Origin: Ctena decussata
Taxonomy: Eukaryota; Mollusca; Bivalvia; Lucinida; Lucinidae
NCBI GenBank assembly: GCA_963989385.1
Contig: OZ022502.1
Location: 12,449,001-12,513,000, forward strand
Reading direction: 5' to 3'
Length of the DNA: 64,000 bases
The translations under genes were made by a program, and so were the position numbers. Positions 20,524 through 60,427 of this stretch are shown here, piece by piece. Position 1 is the stretch's first letter; every line of letters begins with the position of its first letter. The notes beneath the pieces were generated by a model. The model saw only the letters and a program-made list of their open reading frames with translations, was not told the origin of the DNA and ran no database searches.

Positions 20524-20925
20524 GATGCGAAAAGGCGCCATGCGAAAAGACGAAATAACGCCACGCGAAAGGACGAAAAGACGAACTAACGCCATGCGAA
20601 AAGACAAAAAGACGAAATAATGCCATGCGAAAAGACGAAATAACGCCACGCGAAGAGCTGAAAAGACGCCAAGCGAAAAGGCGAAAAGACGACAAAACGC
20701 TTTCGCGAAAAGACGACAAATTCAGAGTTTCAAATGGCGTCTTTTCGCATGGCGTTTTTTCGTCTTTTCGCGCTGACGCGTGGCGGGTTTCGTCTTTTCG
20801 TCTTTTCGCGTGGTGTTATTTCGTCTTTTCGGCTGGCGATTTTTTCCGTTTTTTTCGTCTTTTGGCATGGCGTCTTTTCGTCTTTTCGCGTTGCGTCTTT
20901 TCGCGACGAAAAGACGAAATGGCAC
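20524..20925. repeat. Inverted minisatellite of GCGAAAAGACGAAATAACGC units
   Basis: From 20524 to ~20725 the units read GCGAAAAGACGAAA(T)AACGCCA(T/C), about 20-30 bp each. From ~20735 to 20920 the same units run in reverse complement (GGCGTCTTTTCGTCTTTTCGC). The two halves form a ~200-bp-arm imperfect palindrome with a ~20-bp spacer. Six overlapping Arg/Phe/Ser- or Lys/Arg-rich ORFs here are artefacts of the repeat. Confidence 0.9.
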
Positions 20926-33188: not shown

Positions 33189-36088
33189 TGCTATTATTGC
33201 ATAAATTGAACTACAATGCAATAAAAACAACGAAGATGTCGGCGCACTTTTTTCGGCCTAATCGTCATTACCTTGCTGATTTCAACACGCACTATGTATG
33301 TCTATAAAATCCTCATTTCAGGCGTTGGTCAGCTACCGTGAATTTTCGTTCAGCCTTAAGAAGCATTTCAGAAGTCGTAATCATGTTCATCATAGGTTTT
33401 ACTGGATGTCGTCTGCACTTTCATTTTTACAATATCCGAAATTGTATAACTACCCCGTTAAAATCTTAAACGGATATCTTCAGCTGCAGTTTTGGCCGCT
33501 TGTTTCTGCACTGACAGTGTATTGCCCTGCAACTTGTATACGAAAAGCCGCTAAAGTGGTCATTATCGGCGCATGAAAACCCATGTTAATACATGTTTTT
33601 GTGTTCGTTAAAACATGCCTATTAATAGCGACAACATCGATATTTATGCAAAATTGTCATTATTTGTAAGTGTTTAAATCGACTATCTCATTAAAATTTA
33701 GAAATTGCAGATTACCCATACGAAACGTAAGTCATACAATATACTGGCATGTTACTGACAGCACTATGGCAACACACTGAAAAAGTGCTGGTCATAAAAA
33801 TTGACATCTTGCATACAAGGACATTATTATGGCAAGGAAAATATGCTCCTGGCAACAGTAGAACAATATTGCTTTGTGCAGCTTCTAGGAATCAACTGGT
33901 AATACAATGAATTCACACTGACACTGGAAATTAAGGACAAACAGGTTTCTGATAACAGTAGGGGTTTATTGTCAGTATATTGCCCTTATCTGACATAGTC
34001 AAATTACTTGATGATCACATGACATTACTTCCTGTGTCATGTTATCTTTATGACATCACATCCTGTTTACTGCATAGGGTGATTAAAGTTCACCAATAGA
34101 GCATCTTGTTACTCCAGAGGCTACCAATAGAAAACTTTGTTACCGGCACTATTTTTTTTCTTTTTCCTTTGGAAGTGTCACCGATTTGACTATAACTTAT
34201 TTAGAAGCATCAGATCAATTAATTATTAAGCAGAGAAGATGCAAAATAGTATGCTACAAGATTAAAAAGGACAGGAAGAAAAACATAAGATCTCTTTGAA
34301 GGCAATGCTTTTTTTGAAATTTAGCCAGAGAATGTTGAAAACATCTGAGAATGATGTTTAGTGTACATTTTTCTAAATGTTTAGTGTAATTTTTCTAAAA
34401 ACTAAACGGGGTAATTGGGGGATTATATTTACCAATCGAACACCTTAACGTCACTTTCCAAGCTCACACAGGCCGTCCGTTTATGGGAAAGATGTAGTGA
34501 CCTTTCTCGCAATCCATGCCGCTGAGTGATGAGACTCGCCTCAGAACAAAAATTTTGAAAAAAAGATAAGTGACATTTACACACCCTTTTCTGCGCGTTG
34601 CGTCAGTTAAATGACATGGCCATCTAATAGCATTCTGTATTTATTTCATTTAATCTCTGAAACAATTTACAAAAATCGAGAAACGCCAGACTTACCTCTT
34701 GCTGTCACAATTTTCTAAGCTACAACTTCAGAGGCGCACGTGACGCGGAAGTTCTCCAAAAGATTAAAGTTGCGGTGCCAGTGTCTTTGTTTATCGAGAT
34801 TACCCACCGTGCATAAAGTAAAAAGTATGATGAATATGTTCTATAAAAGGGTTATCCCCTGGAAGCAAGGATCACATCAAAGAACTGAAAACTGTCGAGT
34901 TTACAAGTTTTCTGGGCCAGACTAGCTAGTTTCGGCCAATTAGGCCTCATCAGTTAAGCACACTTCGTTAATGTTTTGTTATCTGAACTACCGATACGAA
35001 TTCTGATAAAACATATTTGCTCTTTATAAAATGTATTTTAATACTTTTATTTTTCTGATTTTCTCTGAATCCCTGCTACCGAGAAACCCGCTAGATTTCT
35101 CCTGTTAATTTTGCTTGTGCAATCAACTTGTTAAAATCTCTGGACTATTTAATATACAATTACTGACTGTTGAGTCATTAGACATGATGTGATGTCAACC
35201 AGAGAATTCCAATGGGAAAACCCCCAAGCCAGTAGACATCCAGTATGTCAAGCGGTTCTAATCACGTTCTGCACCCATGAAAATGTGTTTATTTTGAGAT
35301 AATACAATGAAAAAAATGTCACAAGTCCATAAATGCGCGACCTTGATGTCATTCTCCACAAATTTGAAGAGTAACTACACTTCAGGAACTGACTGAATCA
35401 TTTCCCAAACCCTATCACCAACATCAAAGGGAAAGATTGACAAAGACATCCCAACAAACAATAAATTACAAGTGATAAGCCGAGTCAGCAGCTCCCTCCC
35501 AAATAGGTGGCAACTCAGCTATCTTTATAGAACTAAATAATTTAGACCAACAGAAGGATTACAACAGACTAAGCAAATTATACGAAAAACATTTAACAAC
35601 TACTTTTATCTATTTTCTATCTTTATTATAGAAGGGTTAAAATGAGAACACAAAATATTAAACAGCACCGAACATAAAACAAATGCAACTGCAACGAAAG
35701 TACCGCCTTGGGACGGTCAATAATAACTACTGGGCGTTTGTTTGTTTGTCTGTTACTGGGGGGGGGGGGTTGTCTGTTTGTTTGTCTGTCACAAGTCTGT
35801 TTCTCTCTGACAAGGTCCCGCATATCGTTCTCACAAAATGCAATGGAGCGTGACGCTAGCCGCGTGTTTTTTTAGCATAATAAGAAAAATCATTGAGTGA
35901 AGATTACATCCTGCGTTTGGAAGGCCCTTGTCCTATAGGGGAAGCAAACAGGAAGTTTCTCTTCAGTGAAAATGGCGGGAAAACAAGGAGGTATACTCAT
36001 ACACCTTGTTTTTATTTTCTTGTGCTGTTGGACTACGATTGTCCGTCTAATTTTTGTATGAACGTTTTGTGTTCTCATGTTATTACAG

Positions 36089-36427
36089 AGCGTCCAAAGC
36101 TTGTTGATCTGTTGAAGGGAATGCTCGTTCCTGGTGGTAACACTCGGAATCGCGAACGCATTAATTCAGCAACACCACATATCTACGAAAGACTTACCCC
36201 ATCGAATGTGGTTCCTCATCTGGTATCGTATGGTGTTATAACAAGAGACGAATGTCAATATGTCATAAACAAAGAAACCAAGGAGTCACGCTTGCATGCT
36301 GCATTGGAACTGCTCTATATGCTTCCAAACAGAAGGAAAGATTGGTACATTTTGTTTCTCAAGGCTCTGGTATATGGTGATGAACACACACAGCTTGCAG
36401 AGTTAATTGACCAGAGGAAGACAAATG
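36089..36427 (+). CDS. Coding exon 3 of CARD gene (CARD2)
   Basis: 339 nt, 113 codons, phase 1 to phase 1, between TGTTATTACAG and AAATG|GTATGT. It encodes a complete helical death-fold domain. ERPKLVDLLKGMLVP is followed by HIYERLTPSNVVPHLVSYGV, ITRDECQYVIN, SRLHAALELLYMLPNR, KDWYILFLKALVYG and HTQLAELID. The pattern L.P..V...L...GVIT..E...I, then A...LL..L, then .W...FL.AL...G...L...I, is that of RIG-I/MDA5 CARDs. The frame stays open for ~195 nt upstream, but that part lacks CARD-like sequence and is taken as intron. A tandem-CARD arrangement with a helicase still to come would make this a RIG-I-like receptor. Without the helicase, another CARD protein remains possible. Confidence 0.7.
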
Positions 36428-36617
36428 GTATGTTTCTTGCTTAAACGACCTTATAATTATAGATACGAGCATGACACTCAACGTACTTTACGGCCAGACA
36501 TTTTTGTCGCATCTGTTTTAGCGAGTAAGTGCATGTTTCGATCCGTTTTTCGTCGTTAGCTCATCCGTCTGTCAATTTTTATGTCAGGCCTAAGTGTCAC
36601 AGGGGAGGAAAAAATCG

Positions 36618-36690
36618 TGGCCCGACCGGGACTCGAACCCAGGGCCTCTCGCTTACCGTGCGAGCACTCTGCCAACTGAGCTACCGAGCC
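36618..36690 (-). tRNA. tRNA-Thr(GGU)-like sequence, probably tRNA-derived repeat
   Basis: The minus strand folds into a complete 73-nt cloverleaf: 7-bp acceptor (GGCTCGG/TCGGGCC), D arm GCTC-AGTTGGCA-GAGT, anticodon arm CTCGC-ACGGTAA-GCGAG with anticodon GGT, 5-nt variable region and T arm CTGGG-TTCGAGT-CCCGG. The A box (TAGCTCAGTTGG) and B box (GGTTCGAGTCC) of RNA polymerase III are intact. Position 33, almost always U, is C, which argues against a working tRNA. Being inside a repeated unit also points to a tRNA-derived element. A functional gene is the less likely alternative. Confidence 0.6.
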
Positions 36691-36850
36691 ACATGGTCGA
36701 CCTTTGACATTTTCCCCCTGCTTAATAAGATTCGTCCCCGAATCTACCCGGTACCACGGAGGAACCAACGAGACATGCCATTTTTGATGCTCGCGGTCCT
36801 AGCCGTGGACCCACACTGGCCACCAAATGTCACAGGGGAGGAAAAAATCG

Positions 36851-36923
36851 TGGCCCGACCGGGACTCGAACCCAGGGCCTCTCGCTTACCGTGCGAGCAC
36901 TCTGCCAACTGAGCTACCGAGCC
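36851..36923 (-). tRNA. Second tRNA-Thr(GGU)-like sequence
   Basis: Same 73-nt cloverleaf as the copy at 36618, including C at position 33. It lies 233 bp away in the same orientation and has the same flanking 20-odd bases on each side. Confidence 0.6.
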
Positions 36924-37985: not shown

Positions 37986-38000
37986 TATATATATATATAT
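37986..38000. repeat. (TA)n at the left edge of the PLE array
   Basis: Short AT run directly abutting the truncated ORF1 fragment. The matching, longer run is at 60620-60678 on the other edge. Confidence 0.85.
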
Positions 38001-40931: not shown

Positions 40932-42109
40932 CTACGTCGGAAATGTTCTGTCGAAGGTGTCCTCTAAAAAATAATCATTTTCTGATGACGTATCTGTTTC
41001 CTGCATACAGTCATTGATGTTGTTTGTATTATAGTTTCTTCTTTGACCTTGATTTCTTTGATTTGGTCTTCTGTTCATGTTCCTTCTGTAGTTTTGACCT
41101 TGATTTTGTACCAGTGCCGAAAGTAATTGCTGTAACATTTGGTTGTTATGTTGTCCCTGAATGTAACCTTGTTTTCTGTTGTTTGTATTTCGCTGTCCTG
41201 GGTGTTGTTTAACAATGTCGGCAAATGTCGTCTGGCGTCGTTGGTTCGTAGGGTTTTTGGTATTGAAGTCCACCGTTTTGAAAAATGGATTGCAGTTTTC
41301 ATGCTCTTTAGAAAACTTTTCTGCATATGATTTTAGCCAAGCATCATTTTTCAGCCATCTTTTTGTGAAATTTCTTCGTTTCGTTTTGTTTCGTAACACC
41401 ATAGTTCGAACAGGTATTTGGCAACCTCCCCGTGGCATCTTGAAAGTATAGCTTCTTGTATTTCTTCATCTATTCTTTTCGTGGTCTCTATATTTGCGGA
41501 TGTTCTTAATCGATGAATTTCTATTTGCATTTGAAAGTCATTAATTACACCACGCTCTCGTATTGCTTTTTGTTCGTTATTTTCATTTGTAATCTCTTTC
41601 TTTTGTAGATAACGTGGAATGATCGGCGGTTTTTGTTCAATCCACTCAGAATATGCTTGAAAATGTCCTTGGTTTTTTATCATATTCCAGTACGCATTTC
41701 TGCGTTGTCCCATTCTTACACCCCACATTTTGTTAATCTGTGTCTTTATTCTTAAAGCTTCTGTCTCGATAATATTTTTTGCTACATTTGTGCTGTTTAA
41801 TTGTGTTTGATTTGTTGCTGCACAGGATTGCGGCATTTGTTTTGTAATTTCTTCCACAGTTTTTGCAAGTTCAACCACCATTTCTTCTTTGTTACAAGCT
41901 TTACTTTCCGCTTGATTGTTCTGTACGGTAGCTTTTAAATCATTTATAGCTGTAATAATGGTAGATAATTTATTACTTATCTCTTGAAGTAGTTGTTGCT
42001 CATTCGGCTCCTTCGGCTCCTCTGGCAATGACATATTTGACTCCGACGATAAAGCGTTGTCTGTACTAGAATCCATTTTTACTCGCTTTGCGTTACAGTT
42101 TTTGCCCAT
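40932..42109 (-). pseudogene. M2: PLE ORF1, broken by a 1-nt deletion
   Basis: Starts at the MGKNC ATG (42109) and is colinear with the 392-aa ORF1. The A6 run before RWLKNDAW is A5 here (41360-41364), which shifts frame to an early stop after ...ISQKDG. The distal half remains open in another frame (to 40932). The same deletion occurs in P3, so the two copies share a defective ancestor. Confidence 0.9.
40965..40971 (-). other. M2: U UUU UUA slippery heptamer
   Basis: In ORF1 frame at Tyr380-Phe-Leu, in the same context as the site at 50744. Because ORF1 is already out of frame upstream in M2, this copy cannot make the fusion from its own ORF1 start. Confidence 0.6.
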
Positions 42110-44612: not shown

Positions 44613-45758
44613 CTACGTCGGAAATGTTCTGTCGAAGGTGTCCTCTAAAAAATAATCATTTTCTGATGACGTATCTGTTTCCTGCATACAGTCATTGATG
44701 TTGTTTGTATTATAGTTTCTTCTTTGACCTTGATTTCTTTGATTTGGTCTTCTGTTCATATTCCTTCTGTAGTTTTGACCTTGATTTTGTACCAGTGCCG
44801 AAAGTAATTGCTGTAACATTTGGTTGTTATGTTGTCCCTGAATGTAACCTTGTTTTCTGTTGTTTGTATTTCGCTGTCCTGGGTGTTGTTTAACAATGTC
44901 GGCAAATGTCGTCTGGCGTCGTTGGTTCGTAGGGTTTTTGGTATTGAAGTCCACCGTTTTGAAAAATGGATTGCAGTTTTCATGCTCTTTAGAAAACTTT
45001 TCTGCATATGATTTTAGCCAAGCATCATTTTTCAGCCATCTTTTTTGTGAAATTTCTTCGTTTCGTTTTGTTTCGTAACACCATAGTTCGAACAGGTATT
45101 TGGCAACCTCCCCGTGGCATCTTGAAAGTATTGCTTCTTGTATTTCTTCATCTATGCTTTTCGTGGTCTCTATATTTGCGGATGTTCTTAATCGATGAAG
45201 TTCTATTTGCATTTGAAAGTCATTAATTACACCACGCTCTCGTATTGCTTTTTGTTCGTTATTTTCATTTGTAATCTCTTTCTTTTGTAGATAACGTGGA
45301 ATGATCGGCGGTTTTTGTTCAATCCACTCAGAATATGCTTGAAAATGTCCTTGGTTTTTTATCATATTCCAGTACGCATTTCTGCGTTGTCCCATTCTTA
45401 CACCCCACATTTTGTTAATCTGTGTCTTTATTCTTAAAGCTTCTGTCTCGATAATATTTTTTGCTACATTTGTGCTGTTTAATTGTGTTTGATTTGTTGC
45501 TGCACAGGATTGCGGCATTTGTTTTGTAATTTCTTCCACAGTTTTTGCAAGTTCAACCACCATTTCTTCTTTGTTACAAGCTTTACTTTCCGCTTGATTG
45601 TTCTGTACGGTAGCTTTTAAATCATTTATAGCTGTAATAATGGTAGATAATTTATTACTTATCTCTTGAAGTAGTTGTTGCTCTTTCGGCTCCTTCGGCT
45701 CCTCTGGCAATGACATATTTGACTCCGACGATAAAGTGTTGTCTGAACTAGAATCCAT
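44613..45758 (-). CDS. M1: PLE ORF1, 381 aa from an internal ATG
   Basis: A missing T in the run at ~45757-45760 (minus strand A run before ATGGATTCTAG) throws the usual MGKNC/MCKNC ATG at 45790 out of frame. The next ATG, MDSSSDN, keeps the frame to the normal stop, so only the first ~11 residues are lost. Coiled-coil region, Trp-rich central block and N/Q/R-rich tail are all present. Substitutions specific to this copy include S-S-S-D-N-T near the start and KEPKEQQ in place of KEPNEQQ. Confidence 0.8.
   Translation of the reverse strand: MDSSSDNTLSSESNMSLPEEPKEPKEQQLLQEISNKLSTIITAINDLKATVQNNQAESKACNKEEMVVELAKTVEEITKQMPQSCAATNQTQLNSTNVAKNIIETEALRIKTQINKMWGVRMGQRRNAYWNMIKNQGHFQAYSEWIEQKPPIIPRYLQKKEITNENNEQKAIRERGVINDFQMQIELHRLRTSANIETTKSIDEEIQEAILSRCHGEVAKYLFELWCYETKRNEEISQKRWLKNDAWLKSYAEKFSKEHENCNPFFKTVDFNTKNPTNQRRQTTFADIVKQHPGQRNTNNRKQGYIQGQHNNQMLQQLLSALVQNQGQNYRRNMNRRPNQRNQGQRRNYNTNNINDCMQETDTSSENDYFLEDTFDRTFPT
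44646..44652 (-). other. M1: U UUU UUA slippery heptamer
   Basis: Same phase relative to ORF1 as in the other units. The downstream ORF2 of this unit is interrupted ~200 codons later. Confidence 0.6.
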
Positions 45759-45906: not shown

Positions 45907-45944
45907 TTCCCTATGCATTTCACTGTATAAGATCATCAGGGGAA
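45907..45944 (-). ncRNA. Hammerhead-like motif, M0/M1 spacer
   Basis: Core identical to the other six. It is 3681 nt from the 42226 copy and would define the 5' end of a unit-length M1 RNA. Confidence 0.65.
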
Positions 45945-46010: not shown

Positions 46011-46340
46011 TCATTTGAAACTGTTCAGTAATGGATTAAAAGTGTTTATGAAATGTTTTTCCATGTTTAACCTAGCTGAAACGTTTTCCGTAAACAATTT
46101 GTAAAACGGGAATATTTTAAATTTTGGTTCAGTTTTGCAACAGTCGTCTAAATGTTTGCTTACTGGTATTTGTCTTACCGAGGGGTCTCTAGTCTGTTGC
46201 TTGTGTACTGTTACCCTATTTCTTAGTTTGTCACCAGTTTGGCCTATATAGTATTCGCCGCATCCATTGCACGAAAGAGCATATATTACATTTGAAACTG
46301 TACATGACATTGACGTCTTCACTGTAAATATTTTACCTTT
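46011..46340 (-). pseudogene. M0: PLE ORF2, C-terminal fragment (GIY-YIG part)
   Basis: The last ~110 codons of ORF2, from the GKIFTVKTSMSC segment through the GIY-YIG domain to the normal stop. The 5' side is cut at the inversion junction 46338-46340. One substitution (QQTRDP for QQIRDP) is private to it. Confidence 0.9.
46338..46340. other. Head-to-head junction of the two tandem blocks
   Basis: To the left lies the reverse complement of ORF2 (TATTTTACCTTT). To the right lies ORF1 sense sequence (TTTTCAAGCATATTC). TTT belongs to both, a 3-nt microhomology. The join creates a chimeric 267-codon ORF (46267-47070) that is not a gene. Confidence 0.85.
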
Positions 46341-47070
46341 TCAAGCATATTCTGAGTGGATTGAACAAAAACCGCCGATCATTCCACGTTATCTACAAAA
46401 GAAAGAGATTACAAATGAAAATAACGAACAAAAAGCAATACGAGAGCGTGGTGTAATTAATGACTTTCAAATGCAAATAGAACTTCATCGATTAAGAACA
46501 TCCGCAAATATAGAGACCACGAAAAGAATAGATGAAGAAATACAAGAAGCAATACTTTCAAGATGCCACGGGGAGGTTGCCAAATACCTGTTCGAACTAT
46601 GGTGTTACGAAACAAAACGAAACGAAGAAATTTCACAAAAAAGATGGCTGAAAAATGATGCTTGGCTAAAATCATATGCAGAAAAGTTTTCTAAAGAGCA
46701 TGAAAACTGCAATCCATTTTTCAAAACGGTGGACTTCAATACCAAAAACCCTACGAACCAACGACGCCAGACGACATTTGCCGACATTGTTAAACAACAC
46801 CCAGGACAGCGAAATACAAACAACAGAAAACAAGGTTACATTCAGGGACAACATAACAACCAAATGTTACAGCAATTACTTTCGGCACTGGTACAAAATC
46901 AAGGTCAAAACTACAGAAGGAATATGAACAGAAGACCAAATCAAAGAAATCAAGGTCAAAGAAGAAACTATAATACAAACAACATCAATGACTGTATGCA
47001 GGAAACAGATACGTCATCAGAAAATGATTATTTTTTAGAGGACACCTTCGACAGAACATTTCCGACGTAG
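46341..47070 (+). pseudogene. P0: PLE ORF1, 5'-truncated
   Basis: Begins inside codon ~150 (FQAYSEW) and runs in frame to the normal stop at 47068-47070. It keeps the central block and basic tail but not the coiled coil or any start of its own. Confidence 0.9.
47031..47037 (+). other. P0: U UUU UUA slippery heptamer
   Basis: Conserved in the truncated copy, 31 nt before the ORF1 stop codon. Confidence 0.6.
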
Positions 47071-49384: not shown

Positions 49385-49604
49385 CGTCATAAATATATGT
49401 GCACAATAACGTAACGGTATAACGCCGTTACTATGTATACAACGCCATTATTCCCCTGATGATCTTATACAGTGAAATGCATAGGGAAAATTAAATTATT
49501 TACAGACGTTCCATCTCGTTAGTTTGATTTTTTATATACAGAGTTCTGGTTCCGGACATTATTTTTGTATTTTTACCTATATATCTTCCGGACCCGGAGA
49601 CGAT
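49385..49604 (+). mobile_element. pLTR-like spacer between P0 and P1 (representative)
   Basis: The ~220 bp between the ORF2 stop and the next ORF1 ATG. In order: TGACGTCA palindrome overlapping the ORF2 stop (49382-49389), a 7-bp hairpin GTAACGG/CCGTTAC (49411-49431), the hammerhead-like motif, an AT-rich stretch with TTTTTTATATACAG, and a CCGGACCCGG-containing leader. In tandem PLEs this region serves as both the 3' end of one unit and promoter/leader of the next. The final copy at 60428-60627 stops just before CCGGACCCGG. Confidence 0.7.
49451..49488 (+). ncRNA. Type I hammerhead-ribozyme-like motif, P0/P1 spacer
   Basis: Stem I strands TTCCC (49451-49455) and GGGAA (49484-49488) pair perfectly. 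Core CTGATGA (49456-49462) and GAAA (49474-49477) are exact. ATGCAT (49477-49482) can form stem III only as a minimal or dimeric helix. The expected UH cleavage site is UA at 49482-49483, before GGG. Stem II (49463-49473) is weak: U-U at the first pair, then C-G and U-A around UAUAC. PLE spacers are known to carry minimal hammerheads with very short stem III, often acting as dimers, which supports the call. The poor stem II leaves activity uncertain. Cleavage at successive copies would release monomer-length RNAs. Confidence 0.7.
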
Positions 49605-50783
49605 ATGGGCAAAAACTGTAACGCAAAGCGAGTAAAATTGGATTCTAGTACAGACAACGCTTTATCGTCGGAGTCAAATATGTCATTGCCAGAGGAGCCG
49701 AAGGAGCCGAATGAGCAACAACTACTTCAAGAGATAAGTAATAAATTATCTACCATTATTACAGCTATAAATGATTTAAAAGCTACCGTACAGAACAATC
49801 AAGCGGAAAGTAAAGCTTGTAACAAAGAAGAAATGGTGGTTGAACTTGCAAAAACTGTGGAAGAAATTACAAAACAAATGCCGCAATCCTGTGCAGCAAC
49901 AAATCAAACACAATTAAACAGCACAAATGTAGCAAAAAATATTATCGAGACAGAAGCTTTAAGAATAAAGACACAGATTAACAAAATGTGGGGTGTAAGA
50001 ATGGGACAACGCAGAAATGCGTACTGGAATATGATAAAAAACCAAGGACATTTTCAAGCATATTCTGAGTGGATTGAACAAAAACCGCCGATCATTCCAC
50101 GTTATCTACAAAAGAAAGAGATTACAAATGAAAATAACGAACAAAAAGCAATACGAGAGCGTGGTGTAATTAATGACTTTCAAATGCAAATAGAACTTCA
50201 TCGATTAAGAACATCCGCAAATATAGAGACCACGAAAAGAATAGATGAAGAAATACAAGAAGCAATACTTTCAAGATGCCACGGGGAGGTTGCCAAATAC
50301 CTGTTCGAACTATGGTGTTACGAAACAAAACGAAACGAAGAAATTTCACAAAAAAGATGGCTGAAAAATGATGCTTGGCTAAAATCATATGCAGAAAAGT
50401 TTTCTAAAGAGCATGAAAACTGCAATCCATTTTTCAAAACGGTGGACTTCAATACCAAAAACCCTACGAACCAACGACGCCAGACGACATTTGCCGACAT
50501 TGTTAAACAACACCCAGGACAGCGAAATACAAACAACAGAAAACAAGGTTACATTCAGGGACAACATAACAACCAAATGTTACAGCAATTACTTTCGGCA
50601 CTGGTACAAAATCAAGGTCAAAACTACAGAAGGAACATGAACAGAAGACCAAATCAAAGAAATCAAGGTCAAAGAAGAAACTATAATACAAACAACATCA
50701 ATGACTGTATGCAGGAAACAGATACGTCATCAGAAAATGATTATTTTTTAGAGGACACCTTCGACAGAACATTTCCGACGTAG
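49605..50783 (+). CDS. P1: PLE ORF1, intact 392 aa
   Basis: ATG at 49605 has G at -3 and +4. The frame is open further upstream but without another ATG, so 49605 is taken as start. Residues ~37-92 (QQLLQEISNKLSTIITAIND on) are helical heptad-like and probably a coiled coil. Residues 128-160 hold MWGVRMGQRR and AYWNMI with Trp/Tyr. Residues 285-365 are rich in Asn, Gln and Arg (NRRPNQRNQGQRRNYNTNN), typical of RNA-binding tails. The end (SENDYFLED) is acidic. No named domain is recognised. By position and composition it resembles an ORF1p/Gag-like RNA chaperone or capsid-like protein. It ends 30 nt after the slippery site that could lead into ORF2. Confidence 0.85.
   Translation: MGKNCNAKRVKLDSSTDNALSSESNMSLPEEPKEPNEQQLLQEISNKLSTIITAINDLKATVQNNQAESKACNKEEMVVELAKTVEEITKQMPQSCAATNQTQLNSTNVAKNIIETEALRIKTQINKMWGVRMGQRRNAYWNMIKNQGHFQAYSEWIEQKPPIIPRYLQKKEITNENNEQKAIRERGVINDFQMQIELHRLRTSANIETTKRIDEEIQEAILSRCHGEVAKYLFELWCYETKRNEEISQKRWLKNDAWLKSYAEKFSKEHENCNPFFKTVDFNTKNPTNQRRQTTFADIVKQHPGQRNTNNRKQGYIQGQHNNQMLQQLLSALVQNQGQNYRRNMNRRPNQRNQGQRRNYNTNNINDCMQETDTSSENDYFLEDTFDRTFPT
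50744..50750 (+). promoter_or_regulatory. P1: U UUU UUA -1 frameshift site, ORF1 to ORF2
   Basis: ORF1 codons TAT TTT TTA (50742-50750) contain the heptamer T TTT TTA in the X XXY YYZ phase required for simultaneous -1 slippage. The -1 frame opens at 50741, right after a TGA at 50738-50740, and stays open through the ORF1 stop (50781-50783) into LSKRKL and the whole RT. A downstream stimulator is not obvious: only a TTCAG/CTGAA hairpin (50785-50789 with 50799-50803) was seen. The identical heptamer drives -1 frameshifting in several retroviruses and other RNA systems. Confidence 0.65.
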
Positions 50784-50839
50784 ATTCAGGTAACCTAGCT
50801 GAAAATTCAAACTTTCAAAATTGTATAAAAATATTTAAT

Positions 50840-53066
50840 TTGTCAAAACGAAAATTAACAAAACCAGAAATAAGTATCTTACTGAGGGGTCAAAAATTTA
50901 CACCAACTCCAATTAAAAGTAATACAACTGATTTAAATACTGACATTGACGAATTTTATAGAAAACTTAGACTAAAAGAATATTTCTATAATGACAACAC
51001 AAACGATGATGATTCTCTTGTAAAGAATAAAAGTTATTTTATGCCTCCTAGAGGAAGAAATGAGACACTCGAAAAATATATTGATACAACCAAAACAATT
51101 ACTTCGACACTTTCAGGATTGCAAGAAAATAATTCATTAAAACATAACATAAGCTCGGAAGAAAGAAAGGCAATAGAATCATTAGCAAATGATCCGAATA
51201 TAATAATAAAAGAAGCTGATAAAGGTGGCGGAATAATAATTATGAACATTGAGTTTTATAAAACGAAAGTACAGAATACGCTAAAAGATGAGACCTACTA
51301 TAAACAAATAAATGAACAATGCTCAAAAGAATCATTTTCAAAAATAAAAGAATTATTCAAATTATCTAAAGATATTTCCACAAAAGAAAAAGACTATTTA
51401 ATAAATTTCGATTTTAAAACAAGCACATTTTACGGACTTCCAAAAATCCATAAAAGTAAACTTATACAACACGCCTGTTCTAAAACAAACTCAGATTATA
51501 TTGAAATTAACGATCCAGAGGATTTGGAATTCAGACCAATCGTAGCCGGTCCCATATCGGAAACACATAGATTAAGCAACTTACTAGACATACTACTGAA
51601 ACCTTTTGTAAAACATGTGGACAGTTATATTCAGGACGATATGGACTTTTTAAGACATGTTCCCACAACTGTGGTTGACGAAACATTGCTTGTGTCTTTT
51701 GATGTCATTAGTTTATATTCAAACATTCCACATAATCTTGGCTTTGATGCTTTAAATTACTGGCTATCAAAATACCCAGATCTAATAAATGATCGCTTCA
51801 CAAAAGAATTCATATTAGAAGGTTCCAGGACTATTCTTGAGAATAACAATTTTATATTCAATGATGTTTACTATAAACAAATTAAAGGCACAGCAATGGG
51901 TACAAAGTTTGCACCAACATATGCGACTCTAGTCCTCGGATTTCTGGAGCAAAAACTATATACTAAACTGCAGGAGAGTTATGGTATAGAAATTTCCAGT
52001 TTTGTGAAAGAAAACTGGAAAAGATTTTTAGATGATTGTTTCATCTTTTGGCAGAAAGATCTACACTTATTAAAATCTTTTCATGTACATCTGAATCAAC
52101 TACACCCAGACATAAGGTTCACAATGGAAATAAATGAAAAGCAGTTACCATTTTTTAGATGTACTGGTAATAAAAGATAAATACAATATTAAAACAGATA
52201 TATTTTATAAAAAGACAGACTCAAAACAATACTTAAATTTCTTTTCATGTCATCCAAAGCATACCAAAGTAAATGTTCCATTTAATTTAGCAAAACGCAT
52301 CAGAACGATAGTGTCCGATGATACTTTGACACAAAAACGAATGTCAGACCTAAGAACAGCATTGCGCCACAGAAACTACCCTAAAACTGTAATTAACAAA
52401 GGAATAGAAAAAGCTATGTCAATGTCCAGAAAAGAATGCTTAACCCCCAAAACGAAAGAAAGAAGTAATATTCTACCTTATGTATCCACTTGCAATCCTC
52501 AAAACAAAGAAATGTTTGGTATATTAAAAAACAATCTAACGATTTTACAGGAAGACAATACCATGAGTGAAATTTTAAAAAATACTAGAATAATAAAAAG
52601 TAAAAGACAACCAAAAAACCTTAAAGGTCTTTTAATTACATCTAACTTTAACACCAGGAAGGCAGAAGTCAAAAAGTGCAAATCAGCTAAATGTGGTTTA
52701 TGCCCATATTTGATAGAAGGCAACCAATTTAATTTTAAAGGTAAAATATTTACAGTGAAGACGTCAATGTCATGTACAGTTTCAAATGTAATATATGCTC
52801 TTTCGTGCAATGGATGCGGCGAATACTATATAGGCCAAACTGGTGACAAACTAAGAAATAGGGTAACAGTACACAAGCAACAGATTAGAGACCCCTCGGT
52901 AAGACAAATACCAGTAAGCAAACATTTAGACGACTGTTGCAAAACTGAACCAAAATTTAAAATATTCCCGTTTTACAAATTGTTTACGGAAAACGTTTCA
53001 GCTAGGTTAAACATGGAAAAACATTTCATAAACACTTTTAATCCATTACTGAACAGTTTCAAATGA
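50840..53066 (+). pseudogene. P1: PLE ORF2, broken by a 1-nt insertion
   Basis: 446 codons are open through RT motif C, then an extra T in the run at 52151-52156 converts LPFLDV to LPFFRC and a stop at 52180. The remainder (Cys finger and GIY-YIG) is open from ~52134 to 53066 in the next frame. It carries Leu18 to Gln (LLRGQKF) and Lys241 to Glu (PISETH), both shared with P2. Met147 to Thr and an Arg600 to Thr change are private. Confidence 0.9.
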
Positions 53067-53132: not shown

Positions 53133-53170
53133 TTCCCCTGATGATCTTATACAGTGAAATGCATAGGGAA
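53133..53170 (+). ncRNA. Hammerhead-like motif, P1/P2 spacer
   Basis: Core identical to the 49451 copy, 3682 nt downstream of it. Confidence 0.65.
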
Positions 53171-53286: not shown

Positions 53287-54465
53287 ATGGGCAAAAACTG
53301 TAACGCAAAGCGAGTAAAAATGGATTCTAGTACAGACAACGCTTTATCGTCGGAGTCAAATATGTCATTGCCAGAGGAGCCGAAGGAGCCGAATGAGCAA
53401 CAACTACTTCAAGAGATAAGTAATAAATTATCTACCATTATTACAGCTATAAATGATTTAAAAGCTACCGTACAGAACAATCAAGCGGAAAGTAAAGCTT
53501 GTAACAAAGAAGAAATGGTGGTTGAACTTGCAAAAACTGTGGAAGAAATTACAAAACAAATGCCGCAATCCTGTGCAGCAACAAATCAAACACAATTAAA
53601 CAGCACAAATGTAGCAAAAAATATTATCGAGACAGAAGCTTTAAGAATAAAGACACAGATTAACAAAATGTGGGGTGTAAGAATGGGACAACGCAGAAAT
53701 GCGTACTGGAATATGATAAAAAACCAAGGACATTTTCAAGCATATTCTGAGTGGATTGAACAAAAACCGCCGATCATTCCACGTTATCTACAAAAGAAAG
53801 AGATTACAAATGAAAATAACGAACAAAAAGCAATACGAGAGCGTGGTGTAATTAATGACTTTCAAATGCAAATAGAACTTCATCGATTAAGAACATCCGC
53901 AAATATAGAGACCACGAAAAGAATAGATGAAGAAATACAAGAAGCAATACTTTCAAGATGCCACGGGGAGGTTGCCAAATACCTGTTCGAACTATGGTGT
54001 TACGAAACAAAACGAAACGAAGAAATTTCACAAAAAAGATGGCTGAAAAATGATGCTTGGCTAAAATCATATGCAGAAAAGTTTTCTAAAGAGCATGAAA
54101 ACTGCAATCCATTTTTCAAAACGGTGGACTTCAATACCAAAAACCCTACGAACCAACGACGCCAGACGACATTTGCCGACATTGTTAAACAACACCCAGG
54201 ACAGCGAAATACAAACAACAGAAAACAAGGTTACATTCAGGGACAACATAACAACCAAATGTTACAGCAATTACTTTCGGCACTGGTACAAAATCAAGAT
54301 CAAAACTACAGAAGGAACATGAACAGAAGACCAAATCAAAGAAATCAAGGTCAAAGAAGAAACTATAATACAAACAACATCAATGACTGTATGCAGGAAA
54401 CAGATACGTCATCAGAAAATGATTATTTTTTAGAGGACACCTTCGACAGAACATTTCCGACGTAG
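53287..54465 (+). CDS. P2: PLE ORF1, intact 392 aa
   Basis: Same start and length as P1 ORF1. Differences include KMDSS for KLDSS near residue 12 and a Gly to Asp change (NQDQNYRR) in the basic tail. Structure, start choice and uncertain function are as for P1. Confidence 0.85.
   Translation: MGKNCNAKRVKMDSSTDNALSSESNMSLPEEPKEPNEQQLLQEISNKLSTIITAINDLKATVQNNQAESKACNKEEMVVELAKTVEEITKQMPQSCAATNQTQLNSTNVAKNIIETEALRIKTQINKMWGVRMGQRRNAYWNMIKNQGHFQAYSEWIEQKPPIIPRYLQKKEITNENNEQKAIRERGVINDFQMQIELHRLRTSANIETTKRIDEEIQEAILSRCHGEVAKYLFELWCYETKRNEEISQKRWLKNDAWLKSYAEKFSKEHENCNPFFKTVDFNTKNPTNQRRQTTFADIVKQHPGQRNTNNRKQGYIQGQHNNQMLQQLLSALVQNQDQNYRRNMNRRPNQRNQGQRRNYNTNNINDCMQETDTSSENDYFLEDTFDRTFPT
54426..54432 (+). 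other. P2: U UUU UUA slippery heptamer
   Basis: In the same phase. The TGA closing the -1 frame upstream is at 54420-54422 and the ORF1 stop at 54463-54465. Confidence 0.6.
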
Positions 54466-56967: not shown

Positions 56968-58145
56968 ATGGGCAAAAACTGTAACGCAAAGCGAGTAAAA
57001 ATGGATTCTAGTACAGACAACGCTTTATCGTCGGAGTCAAATATGTCATTGCCAGAGGAGCCGAAGGAGCCGAATGAGCAACAACTACTTCAAGAGATAA
57101 GTAATAAATTATCTACCATTATTACAGCTATAAATGATTTAAAAGCTACCGTACAGAACAATCAAGCGGAAAGTAAAGCTTGTAACAAAGAAGAAATGGT
57201 GGTTGAACTTGCAAAAACTGTGGAAGAAATTACAAAACAAATGCCGCAATCCTGTGCAGCAACAAATCAAACACAATTAAACAGCACAAATGTAGCAAAA
57301 AATATTATCGAGACAGAAGCTTTAAGAATAAAGACACAGATTAACAAAATGTGGGGTGTAAGAATGGGACAACGCAGAAATGCGTACTGGAATATGATAA
57401 AAAACCAAGGACATTTTCAAGCATATTCTGAGTGGATTGAACAAAAACCGCCGATCATTCCACGTTATCTACAAAAGAAAGAGATTACAAATGAAAATAA
57501 CGAACAAAAAGCAATACGAGAGCGTGGTGTAATTAATGACTTTCAAATGCAAATAGAACTTCATCGATTAAGAACATCCGCAAATATAGAGACCACGAAA
57601 AGAATAGATGAAGAAATACAAGAAGCAATACTTTCAAGATGCCACGGGGAGGTTGCCAAATACCTGTTCGAACTATGGTGTTACGAAACAAAACGAAACG
57701 AAGAAATTTCACAAAAAGATGGCTGAAAAATGATGCTTGGCTAAAATCATATGCAGAAAAGTTTTCTAAAGAGCATGAAAACTGCAATCCATTTTTCAAA
57801 ACGGTGGACTTCAATACCAAAAACCCTACGAACCAACGACGCCAGACGACATTTGCCGACATTGTTAAACAACACCCAGGACAGCGAAATACAAACAACA
57901 GAAAACAAGGTTACATTCAGGGACAACATAACAACCAAATGTTACAGCAATTACTTTCGGCACTGGTACAAAATCAAGGTCAAAACTACAGAAGGAACAT
58001 GAACAGAAGACCAAATCAAAGAAATCAAGGTCAAAGAAGAAACTATAATACAAACAACATCAATGACTGTATGCAGGAAACAGATACGTCATCAGAAAAT
58101 GATTATTTTTTAGAGGACACCTTCGACAGAACATTTCCGACGTAG
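56968..58145 (+). pseudogene. P3: PLE ORF1, broken by a 1-nt deletion
   Basis: The ATG at 56968 is intact, but the A6 run before RWLKNDAW is A5 (57713-57717), giving a stop after ISQKDG. The tail is open in another frame to 58145. The lesion is the same as in M2, on the opposite strand of the array. Confidence 0.9.
58106..58112 (+). other. P3: U UUU UUA slippery heptamer
   Basis: Conserved directly upstream of the intact ORF2 of this unit. The ORF1 break lies ~390 nt upstream, so only an internally started ORF1 could reach it in frame. Confidence 0.6.
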
Positions 58146-58201
58146 ATTCAGGTAACCTAGCTGAAAATTTAAACTTTCAAAATTGTATAAAAATATTTAA
58201 T

Positions 58202-60427
58202 TTGTCAAAACGAAAATTAACAAAACCAGAAATAAGTATCTTACTGAGGGGTCTAAAATTTACACCAACTCCAATTAAAAGTAATACAACTGATTTAAAT
58301 ACTGACATTGACGAATTTTATAGAAAACTTAGACTAAAAGAATATTTCTATAATGACAACACAAACGATGATGATTCTCTTGTAAAGAATAAAAGTTATT
58401 TTATGCCTCCTAGAGGAAGAAATGAGACACTCGAAAAATATATTGATACAACCAAAACAATTACTTCGACACTTTCAGGATTGCAAGAAAATAATTCATT
58501 AAAACATAACATAAGCTCGGAAGAAAGAAAGGCAATAGAATCATTAGCAAATGATCCGAATATAATATTAAAAGAAGCTAATAAAGGTGGCGGAATAATA
58601 ATTATGAACATTGAGTTTTATAAAACGAAAGTACAGAATATGCTAAAAGATGAGACCTACTATAAACAAATAAATGAACAATGCTCCAAAGAATCATTTT
58701 CAAAAATAAAAGAATTATTCAAATTATCTAAAGATATTTCCACAAAAGAAAAAGACTATTTAATAAATTTCGATTTTAAAACAAGCACATTTTACGGACT
58801 TCCAAAAATCCATAAAAGTAAACTTATACAACACGCCTGTTCTAAAACAAACTCAGATTATATTGAAATTAACGATCCAGAGGATTTGGAATTCAGACCA
58901 ATCGTAGCCGGTCCAATATCGGAAACACATAGATTAAGCAACTTACTAGACATACTACTGAAACCTTTTGTAAAACATGTGGACAGTTATATTCAGGACG
59001 ATATGGACTTTTTAAGACATGTTCCCACAACTGTGGTTGACGAAACATTGCTTGTGTCTTTTGATGTCATTAGTTTATATTCAAACATTCCACATAATCT
59101 TGGCTTTGATGCTTTAAATTACTGGCTATCAAAATACCCAGATCTAATAAACGATCGCTTCACAAAAGAATTCATATCAGAAGGTTCCAGGACTATTCTT
59201 GAGAATAACAATTTTATATTCAATGATGTTTACTATAAACAAATTAAAGGCACAGCAATGGGTACAAAGTTTGCACCAACATATGCGACTCTAGTCCTCG
59301 GATTTCTGGAGCAAAAACTATATACTAAACTGCAGGAGAGTTATGGTATAGAAATTTCCAGTTTTGTGAAAGAAAACTGGAAAAGATTTTTAGATGATTG
59401 TTTCATCTTTTGGCAGAAAGATCTACACTTATTAAAATCTTTTCATGTACATCTGAATCAACTACACCCAGACATAAGGTTCACAATGGAAATAAATGAA
59501 AAGCAGTTACCATTTTTAGATGTACTGGTAATAAAAGATAAATACAATATTAAAACAGATATATTTTATAAAAAGACAGACTCAAAACAATACTTAAATT
59601 TCTTTTCATGTCATCCAAAGCATACCAAAGTAAATGTTCCATTTAATTTAGCAAAACGCATCAGAACGATAGTGTCCGATGATACTTTGACACAAAAACG
59701 AATGTCAGACCTAAGAACAGCATTGCGCCACAGAAACTACCCTAAAACTGTAATTAACAAAGGAATAGAAAAAGCTATGTCAATGTCCAGAAAAGAATGC
59801 TTAACCCCCAAAACGAAAGAAAGAAGTAATATTCTACCTTATGTATCCACTTGCAATCCTCAAAACAAAGAAATGTTTGGTATATTAAAAAACAATCTAA
59901 CGATTTTACAGGAAGACAATACCATGAGTGAAATTTTAAAAAATACTAGAATAATAAAAAGTAAAAGACAACCAAAAAACCTTAAAGGTCTTTTAATTAG
60001 ATCTAACTTTAACACCAGGAAGGCAGAAGTCAAAAAGTGCAAATCAGCTAAATGTGGTTTATGCCCATATTTGATAGAAGGCAACCAATTTAATTTTAAA
60101 GGTAAAATATTTACAGTGAAGACGTCAATGTCATGTACAGTTTCAAATGTAATATATGCTCTTTCGTGCAATGGATGCGGCGAATACTATATAGGCCAAA
60201 CTGGTGACAAACTAAGAAATAGGGTAACAGTACACAAGCAACAGATTAGAGACCCCTCGGTAAGACAAATACCAGTAAGCAAACATTTAGACGACTGTTG
60301 CAAAACTGAACCAAAATTTAAAATATTCCCGTTTTACAAATTGTTTACGGAAAACGTTTCAGCTAGGTTAAACATGGAAAAACATTTCATAAACACTTTT
60401 AATCCATTACTGAACAGTTTCAAATGA
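58202..60427 (+). CDS. P3: PLE ORF2, intact 741 codons (RT + GIY-YIG)
   Basis: Full open frame with motif A Asp288, motif B GTAMGTKFAPTYA, motif C FLDDC, the C-x4-C-x2-C finger and GIY-YIG catalytic residues in place. Position 1 is TTG at 58202 and the first ATG is codon 68, as in M2. The frame continues upstream into ORF1. The conserved DKG motif reads NKG (Asp127 to Asn, with Ile123 to Leu), a change not seen elsewhere in the array. Its effect is unknown, but the motif is near-universal in PLE proteins. It is the best-preserved RT core here. Confidence 0.9.
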   Translation: MSKRKLTKPEISILLRGLKFTPTPIKSNTTDLNTDIDEFYRKLRLKEYFYNDNTNDDDSLVKNKSYFMPPRGRNETLEKYIDTTKTITSTLSGLQENNSLKHNISSEERKAIESLANDPNIILKEANKGGGIIIMNIEFYKTKVQNMLKDETYYKQINEQCSKESFSKIKELFKLSKDISTKEKDYLINFDFKTSTFYGLPKIHKSKLIQHACSKTNSDYIEINDPEDLEFRPIVAGPISETHRLSNLLDILLKPFVKHVDSYIQDDMDFLRHVPTTVVDETLLVSFDVISLYSNIPHNLGFDALNYWLSKYPDLINDRFTKEFISEGSRTILENNNFIFNDVYYKQIKGTAMGTKFAPTYATLVLGFLEQKLYTKLQESYGIEISSFVKENWKRFLDDCFIFWQKDLHLLKSFHVHLNQLHPDIRFTMEINEKQLPFLDVLVIKDKYNIKTDIFYKKTDSKQYLNFFSCHPKHTKVNVPFNLAKRIRTIVSDDTLTQKRMSDLRTALRHRNYPKTVINKGIEKAMSMSRKECLTPKTKERSNILPYVSTCNPQNKEMFGILKNNLTILQEDNTMSEILKNTRIIKSKRQPKNLKGLLIRSNFNTRKAEVKKCKSAKCGLCPYLIEGNQFNFKGKIFTVKTSMSCTVSNVIYALSCNGCGEYYIGQTGDKLRNRVTVHKQQIRDPSVRQIPVSKHLDDCCKTEPKFKIFPFYKLFTENVSARLNMEKHFINTFNPLLNSFK

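Follow-up and report, generated by a model that had tools for sequence, protein, structure and literature searches.

How is a reverse transcriptase (RT) translated when its reading frame overlaps an upstream ORF out of phase and has no ATG near its beginning? This question is raised by a repeated retroelement in a 64-kb window (i.e. the whole stretch of DNA analysed here), in which two ORFs meet at positions 50741–50783. Their junction is a real and conserved feature that, on the basis of sequence comparisons, is best read as programmed −1 ribosomal frameshifting in a clade of Penelope-like elements (PLEs).

The ORF1/ORF2 junction in the window

Self-comparison of the window delineates an array of PLE units at 37998–60626 with a period of ~3.68 kb. 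The array consists of two head-to-tail runs of opposite orientation that meet near 46340, and its units are ~99.5% identical. In the unit under study, ORF1 extends from stop to stop over 49485–50783 (+), encodes 392 aa from a methionine (MGKNC) at 49605, and terminates at a TAG (50781–50783, +). ORF2 is closed upstream by a TGA (50738–50740, +) and encodes the RT part of the element at 50741–52180 (+), with its frame broken near codon 472. The two ORFs overlap by 43 nt in −1 phase (50741–50783, +), and the overlap contains the slippery heptamer T TTT TTA (50744–50750, +). Read in the ORF1 frame, this sequence is TAT TTT TTA, which places the heptamer in the X XXY YYZ phase; the TGA ends 3 nt ahead of it and the ORF1 TAG begins 30 nt past it. 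The same heptamer is found on the plus strand at 47031–47037, at 54426–54432 and, in a unit with an intact ORF2, at 58106–58112, and on the minus strand at 44646–44652 (5′ end at 44652) and 40965–40971 (5′ end at 40971).

A preliminary description of this DNA had claimed the 43-nt overlap in −1 phase, the in-phase heptamer in six units and the two spacings of 3 and 30 nt. All of these are borne out, with the overlap and the heptamer present in six of six units, on both strands. It had also placed the first ORF2 ATG at codon 68 and an LLRGLKFTPTP motif at codons 14–24, two positions that are both off by 33: an early ATG is indeed absent, the first being codon 101, and the motif LLRGxKFTPTP (LLRGQKFTPTP in the unit at 50741) occupies codons 47–57.

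When the codons of ORF1 were shuffled, any canonical X XXY YYZ heptamer (where Y is A or T, and Z is not G) appeared in the last 14 codons with a chance of 9.3%, so that a single site is weak evidence, suggestive on its own. For TTTTTTA itself, a sequence picked after the fact, this chance was 0.1%. The two ORFs are not intact together in any of the six window units: those with an open ORF1 (49485 and 53167) have an ORF2 that breaks near codon 472 (in the unit under study, at a T-run exceeding that of the remaining units by one T), and those with an open ORF2 (58103, +, and from 40974, minus strand) have a broken ORF1.

The short spacer between units contains a hammerhead-like core (CTGATGA..GAAA; CTGATGATCTTATACAGTGAAA) at 49456–49477 (+). 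Pattern search located further cores of this kind at 53138, 56819 and 60499 (+) and, on the minus strand, with 5′ ends at 45939, 42258 and 38578, and an Rfam search returned no hammerhead match for the candidate cores in the spacers. AT repeats flank the array on both sides (37998 and 60626), and one copy elsewhere in the genome (L017) abuts (GA)n(TA)n, which suggests insertion at TA-rich microsatellites.

The encoded proteins

The intact ORF2 (58103–60427, +; 774 aa) encodes an RT carrying an FLDD motif, followed by a C-terminal GIY-YIG endonuclease domain (PF01541; E 1.3e-7; 32.2 bits against a cut-off of 22.6). An AlphaFold model of this protein (16 sequences) has a mean pLDDT of 81. Ranked by E-value, the first seven PDB matches to this model are all telomerase RTs (the best being 3du5, E 7e-8), with TM-scores of only ~0.3–0.4. 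Residues 1–26 are modelled below pLDDT 50, and residues 31–60 form one strand and one helix, with mean values of 94, 93 and 84 per ten residues. Because residues 31–60 are modelled confidently, the RT fold seems to need translation that starts well before codon 101.

The element at 50741 is a PLE. It has the telomerase-like RT, the C-terminal GIY-YIG domain and the tandem and inverted copies of this class, and it shares with the GIY-YIG PLEs both the order of RT and endonuclease and the arrangement of copies; PLEs commonly occur as tandem and inverted copies according to two reports (PMC11167929, PMC3846280). In a further report, PLEs are described as having either one ORF that combines RT and endonuclease or two ORFs and no endonuclease (PMC6431247), and another calls a single ORF typical of them (PMC6515669). 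Unlike the described GIY-YIG PLEs, this element has a separate ORF1 preceding the RT-endonuclease ORF, which lies in the −1 frame. An RT-endonuclease ORF with a start of its own was not found, as ORF2 has no ATG until codon 101. Since RT, endonuclease and layout all agree with a PLE, we read the missing start as a variant feature.

ORF1 ends in a basic, Q/N/R-rich tail, on the basis of which it is perhaps an RNA-binding, Gag-like partner of the RT. It has a conserved core (RRNAYWN..IIPRYLQ) that is common to four other families of the same genome (see below). Pfam yielded no hit above cut-off for ORF1 and the PDB yielded none, and protein database searches, with the whole ORF1 and then with its core, returned no relatives, so that its relatives are known only from the window's own genome. 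The AlphaFold model of ORF1, made without an alignment, has a mean pLDDT of 39, and its helices are therefore not taken as evidence.

The junction across the genome

A search of the 1.66-Gb genome with ORF2 as query scored 59 of 4089 candidates, so that the counts given here are lower bounds. Forty of the 59 places were sampled and, together with the window, gave 41 distinct junctions on 10 contigs, which we designated family A. Among the 40 places, L017, L018, L034, L035 and L039 have no junction of their own. L018 and L034 (with open frames of 851 and 799 aa) and L017 were considered as in-frame ORF1 fusions and rejected, being 5′-truncated copies joined to inverted or foreign DNA. The TGA closing ORF2 lies at the same place in all 41 junctions and TTTTTTA is present in 40, the remaining one reading TTGTTTA. 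Both ORFs are full length (432 codons for ORF1 and 774 for ORF2) in 11 units: eight belong to a single array on C2, and the other three are located singly on C4, C7 and C10. Four more units have an ORF1 that is open for 392 codons from its methionine, together with an ORF2 of 774 (three units) or 773 codons (one unit). The heptamer occurs in all 15 of these units with open ORFs, and its retention throughout the genome argues against decay confined to this locus and against an error in base calling.

A single frame with seven Ts could nevertheless be the working form of the element, the six Ts being a copy-specific loss or an assembly error, or else being corrected by polymerase slippage. By frame arithmetic, one added T would fuse the two frames, and four of the five single-base indels between window units lie in, or lengthen, a one-letter run. 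However, across 10 contigs the junction has six Ts in 40 of 41 cases, with no exception among the units in which neither ORF is shortened, and the out-of-frame layout recurs in four diverged families. Furthermore, a one-frame ORF1-RT fusion is absent among the best 120 of 840 protein relatives, the longest of which has 798 aa. We consider a seven-T working form extremely unlikely.

The presence of intact units also bears on whether the family is alive. If it were dead, ORF2 would be a remnant and no fusion would be made, a scenario that fits the 30 of 41 units in which the two ORFs are not both at full length. It is contradicted by the 11 units in which they are, and by the non-synonymous/synonymous ratios of 0.56 and 0.41 between copies over ORF2 codons 101–774, leaving it with almost no credence. 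Over ORF2 codons 15–100 the ratio is 0.75 for private and 0.93 for shared changes, values that rest on few sites and are not clearly below 1. The corresponding comparison for ORF1 is unreliable, because it includes units with non-homologous upstream DNA.

Diverged families in the same genome

The preliminary description had proposed an alignment of the overlap across diverged relatives. With a protein relative of ORF2 (P0004) as query, four further families (B–E) were found in the same genome, and another relative (P0016) gave no additional families. Thirteen junction stretches were examined. Two of these have no junction, as L050 carries other DNA in place of its 5′ end and L052 lacks the motif, leaving 11. 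Families B–E show the −1 overlap with an in-phase heptamer, T TTT TTA or T TTT TTG, which is kept in eight of the 11 junctions (L041, L042, L044, L047, L048, L049, L051 and L057) and broken in three (L043 of family B, and L045 and L046 of family C). In L045, ORF1 is open despite the broken heptamer, and ORF2 has one stop. Both ORFs are open in L042 (B), L044 (C) and L048 (E), one copy each, all with the heptamer. Among the junctions read in all families, there is no copy with both ORFs open but without the heptamer.

For comparisons between families, one copy with an intact heptamer was chosen per family (A, L011 or the window; B, L042; C, L044; D, L049, which has lost the original 5′ end of its ORF1; E, L048). 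The three broken junctions (L043, L045 and L046) were left out of the family alignments and of the spacing, codon and synonymous-conservation figures. Families B–E are 58–59% identical to family A in ORF2 and 30–36% in ORF1; among all five families, these values are 58–76% and 30–58%, respectively. In the chosen copies of B–E, a TGA closes ORF2 upstream and the −1 overlap measures 40–46 nt, and in those of all five families the start of T TTT TT[A/G] precedes the ORF1 TAG by 37 nt. Between positions −45 and +60, the longest run shared without change by the five families is that of the six Ts. Three of the five families (B, C and D) have U UUU UUG, a form outside the canonical definition used above (Z not G).

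The codon preceding the Phe-Leu pair changes between families (TAT, TAT, ATT, GAT and ACT, encoding Tyr, Tyr, Ile, Asp and Thr), and its third base is always T, whereas third bases elsewhere in ORF1 agree in only 34–43% of codons between families. Conditional on the encoded amino acids, this set of codons has a probability of 3.5e-4 (counting three lineages) or 1.4e-5 (counting five families), figures that were obtained after the fact and on chosen copies. It is the comparison with the other families that makes the heptamer more than a product of chance.

Conservation of the −1 frame

The ORF2 protein is conserved upstream of its first ATG. The residues NLAE, encoded in the −1 frame past the heptamer (at codon 18 in family A), are also present in families B–E, and in C and E their codons overlap the ORF1 stop. 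Among the protein relatives of the close clade, five extend far enough N-terminally to be compared, and four of them have NLAE (P0003, P0004, P0006 and P0016). The fifth, P0015, lacks NLAE and has a called M start at about its place. Upstream of the NLS portion of the RT N-terminus, none of the families has an ATG; in family D, one follows just behind this portion.

Synonymous conservation was compared between the ORF2 of the window, where the region of interest lies at 50744–50880, and families B–E (L042, L044, L048 and L049, with L053–L056). Across 150 thirty-codon segments of ORF2, it is highest in the one that begins at the heptamer (0.74 vs 0.485 overall; permutation p 0.0015). The value for the first 30 codons is 0.69 (p 0.041) without the six Ts, and 0.79 (p 0.024) when only the pairs B–D and C–E are compared, and a second, weaker hump occurs at approximately ORF2 codons 60–100. 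Windows at the end of ORF1 are highest or tied for highest in that ORF; with the slip codons masked, they are not significant (p 0.33 for all pairs and 0.84 for the two pairs). The conserved first 30 codons of ORF2 could be an RNA signal for frameshifting or for RT initiation. For an Anolis PLE, one report states that insertion in vitro needs the first 172 nt of the ORF (PMC11167929). By analogy, the conserved start of ORF2 may hold another RNA signal.

Frameshifting as the best explanation

We regard −1 frameshifting that gives rise to an ORF1-RT-GIY-YIG fusion as the best explanation of this junction, and as a probable one. In this mechanism, one mRNA would carry ORF1 and, in the −1 frame, ORF2. 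Most ribosomes would terminate at the ORF1 TAG. On reaching U UUU UU(A/G), 37 nt ahead of this stop, a minority would move back by one base and continue into ORF2. The product of this slippage would be an ORF1-RT-endonuclease fusion. A retrovirus-style frameshift of this kind had already been proposed in the preliminary description, and the layout of families B–E lends it support: the overlap, its phase, the heptamer in five families and the lack of an ATG before the NLS motif are all read directly from the junctions. That ribosomes slip here, how often they do so and what ORF1 contributes are inferences.

Among the features sought in a frameshift site, the heptamer in phase within a −1 overlap and its conservation in diverged relatives are present, and a downstream hairpin or pseudoknot is not. 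Over 120 nt downstream, the structure has a z-score of +0.59. The best hairpin reaches −5.5, against a shuffle mean of −7.0, and no pseudoknot was found under simple rules. Over 70 nt downstream in eight copies of the five families, values range from ~0 to −1.2 sd of shuffles, and a search for covarying structure gave no consensus pair across families. The missing stimulatory structure counts against frameshifting, as do the G as last base in three families, the three broken junctions, P0015, the non-significant conservation at the end of ORF1 with the slip codons masked, and the non-synonymous/synonymous ratio over ORF2 codons 15–100.

The main rival to frameshifting is splicing, in which an intron would join ORF1 to ORF2, the T-run would be part of the 3′ splice site and the overlap would never be translated in two frames. 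The sequence TTTTTTAG of families A and E resembles an acceptor, and the AG of the ORF1 TAG lies at the same distance and in the same phase in all five families. However, acceptors right after the heptamer differ in phase between families or are missing, and no donor of at least 7/9 occurs inside ORF1 of A and D, while B, C and E have none in a common position. Nor does splicing predict that a codon which varies between families should keep T in its third position, or that the spacing should be fixed at 37 nt, and we consider it unlikely.

Distribution among protein relatives

Of the 840 protein relatives of ORF2 that were scored, the best 120 were considered. In the resulting tree, the window's ORF2 belongs to a 26-row clade (support 93/92, or 89/90 with the new families added), within which family A falls in one half and families B–E in the other. 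As they fall in opposite halves, the layout probably dates to the ancestor of the clade. Searches of viral contigs, GTDB genome contigs, plasmids and phages returned no relatives.

The called starts of these proteins bear on whether ORF2 might instead be translated alone, by non-AUG initiation, from an internal ribosome entry site, or by reinitiation after ORF1. Outside the close clade, 59 of the 72 motif-bearing tree rows have a called start at least 16 residues upstream of the motif, as does P0015 inside the clade, and such starts would be compatible with an independent ORF2. Rows of the close clade, on the other hand, mostly start fewer than 16 residues before the motif (12 of 18 vs 13 of 72 elsewhere; Fisher p 1.3e-4, in a table that omits 31 of the 121 tree rows, namely 30 without the motif and the query, and with a 16-residue cut of our own choice). 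Called starts are indirect evidence, since a GTG or TTG start may be rendered as M by gene callers. The junctions themselves also argue against a separate start: family A has no ATG before codon 101, and upstream of NLAE only an ATT (codon 11) is one base from ATG. By inspection, no near-cognate codon upstream of NLAE is common to the five families, A and B each having an ATT. Independent translation of ORF2 is accordingly judged very unlikely.

Extending −1 frameshifting from these families to their relatives, the case is evenly balanced for the proposal that throughout the 26-row clade the RT-endonuclease is produced exclusively within a Gag-Pol-like ORF1-RT-GIY-YIG fusion, through −1 slippage at U UUU UU(A/G). 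No classical RNA stimulator would be involved, a linear RNA signal within ORF2 codons 1–30 possibly helping instead, and the retroviral Gag:Gag-Pol strategy would then have evolved independently in a telomerase-related class.

Relation to known systems

U UUU UUA is the shift site of HIV-1, according to two reports (PMC5009743, PMC4373837). The PLE junction shares with HIV-1 gag-pol the heptamer, its phase and the position of the RT in the downstream frame. It differs from HIV-1 in that no stem-loop or pseudoknot was found, in belonging to an unrelated retroelement class, and in having G as the last base in three of the five families. HeT-A, a telomeric non-LTR element of Drosophila, has a Gag-like gene that is described as needing frameshifting (PMC5009743), and it does not encode its own RT, unlike the PLE.

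The preliminary description had stated that no PLE with a frameshift strategy was known. None was found in the open-access PMC literature searched, and the statement holds there only. In the portions of PMC5408684 and PMC6431247 that were available, −1 frameshifting of PLEs is not described, and in that of PMC3846280 frameshifts are named only as defects. If the frameshifting reading is true, endonuclease-bearing PLEs, which have been described as one-ORF elements, can make a set ratio of upstream protein to fusion RT in a retrovirus-like manner. Annotation that takes the first ATG as the start of ORF2 would then lose part of the RT. In addition, natural U UUU UU(A/G) sites without an obvious stimulator could be used to study other drivers of frameshifting.

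Other features of the window

Outside the array, two tRNA-Thr (GGT) calls (36617–36690 and 36850–36923, −) lie ~160 bases apart, each embedded in a repeated stretch whose opposite strand reads GPTGTRTQGLSLTVRAL and which is perhaps a tRNA-derived repeat. At 20528–20903, repeats of the CGAAAAGACG type form an array that switches to the reverse complement (TTTTCGTCTTTTCGC) inside 400 bases. Lastly, the open frame at 35884–36444 (+) contains the stretch RPKLVDLLKGML..LHAALELLYMLPNRRKDW, which we take to be reminiscent of a death-fold domain.
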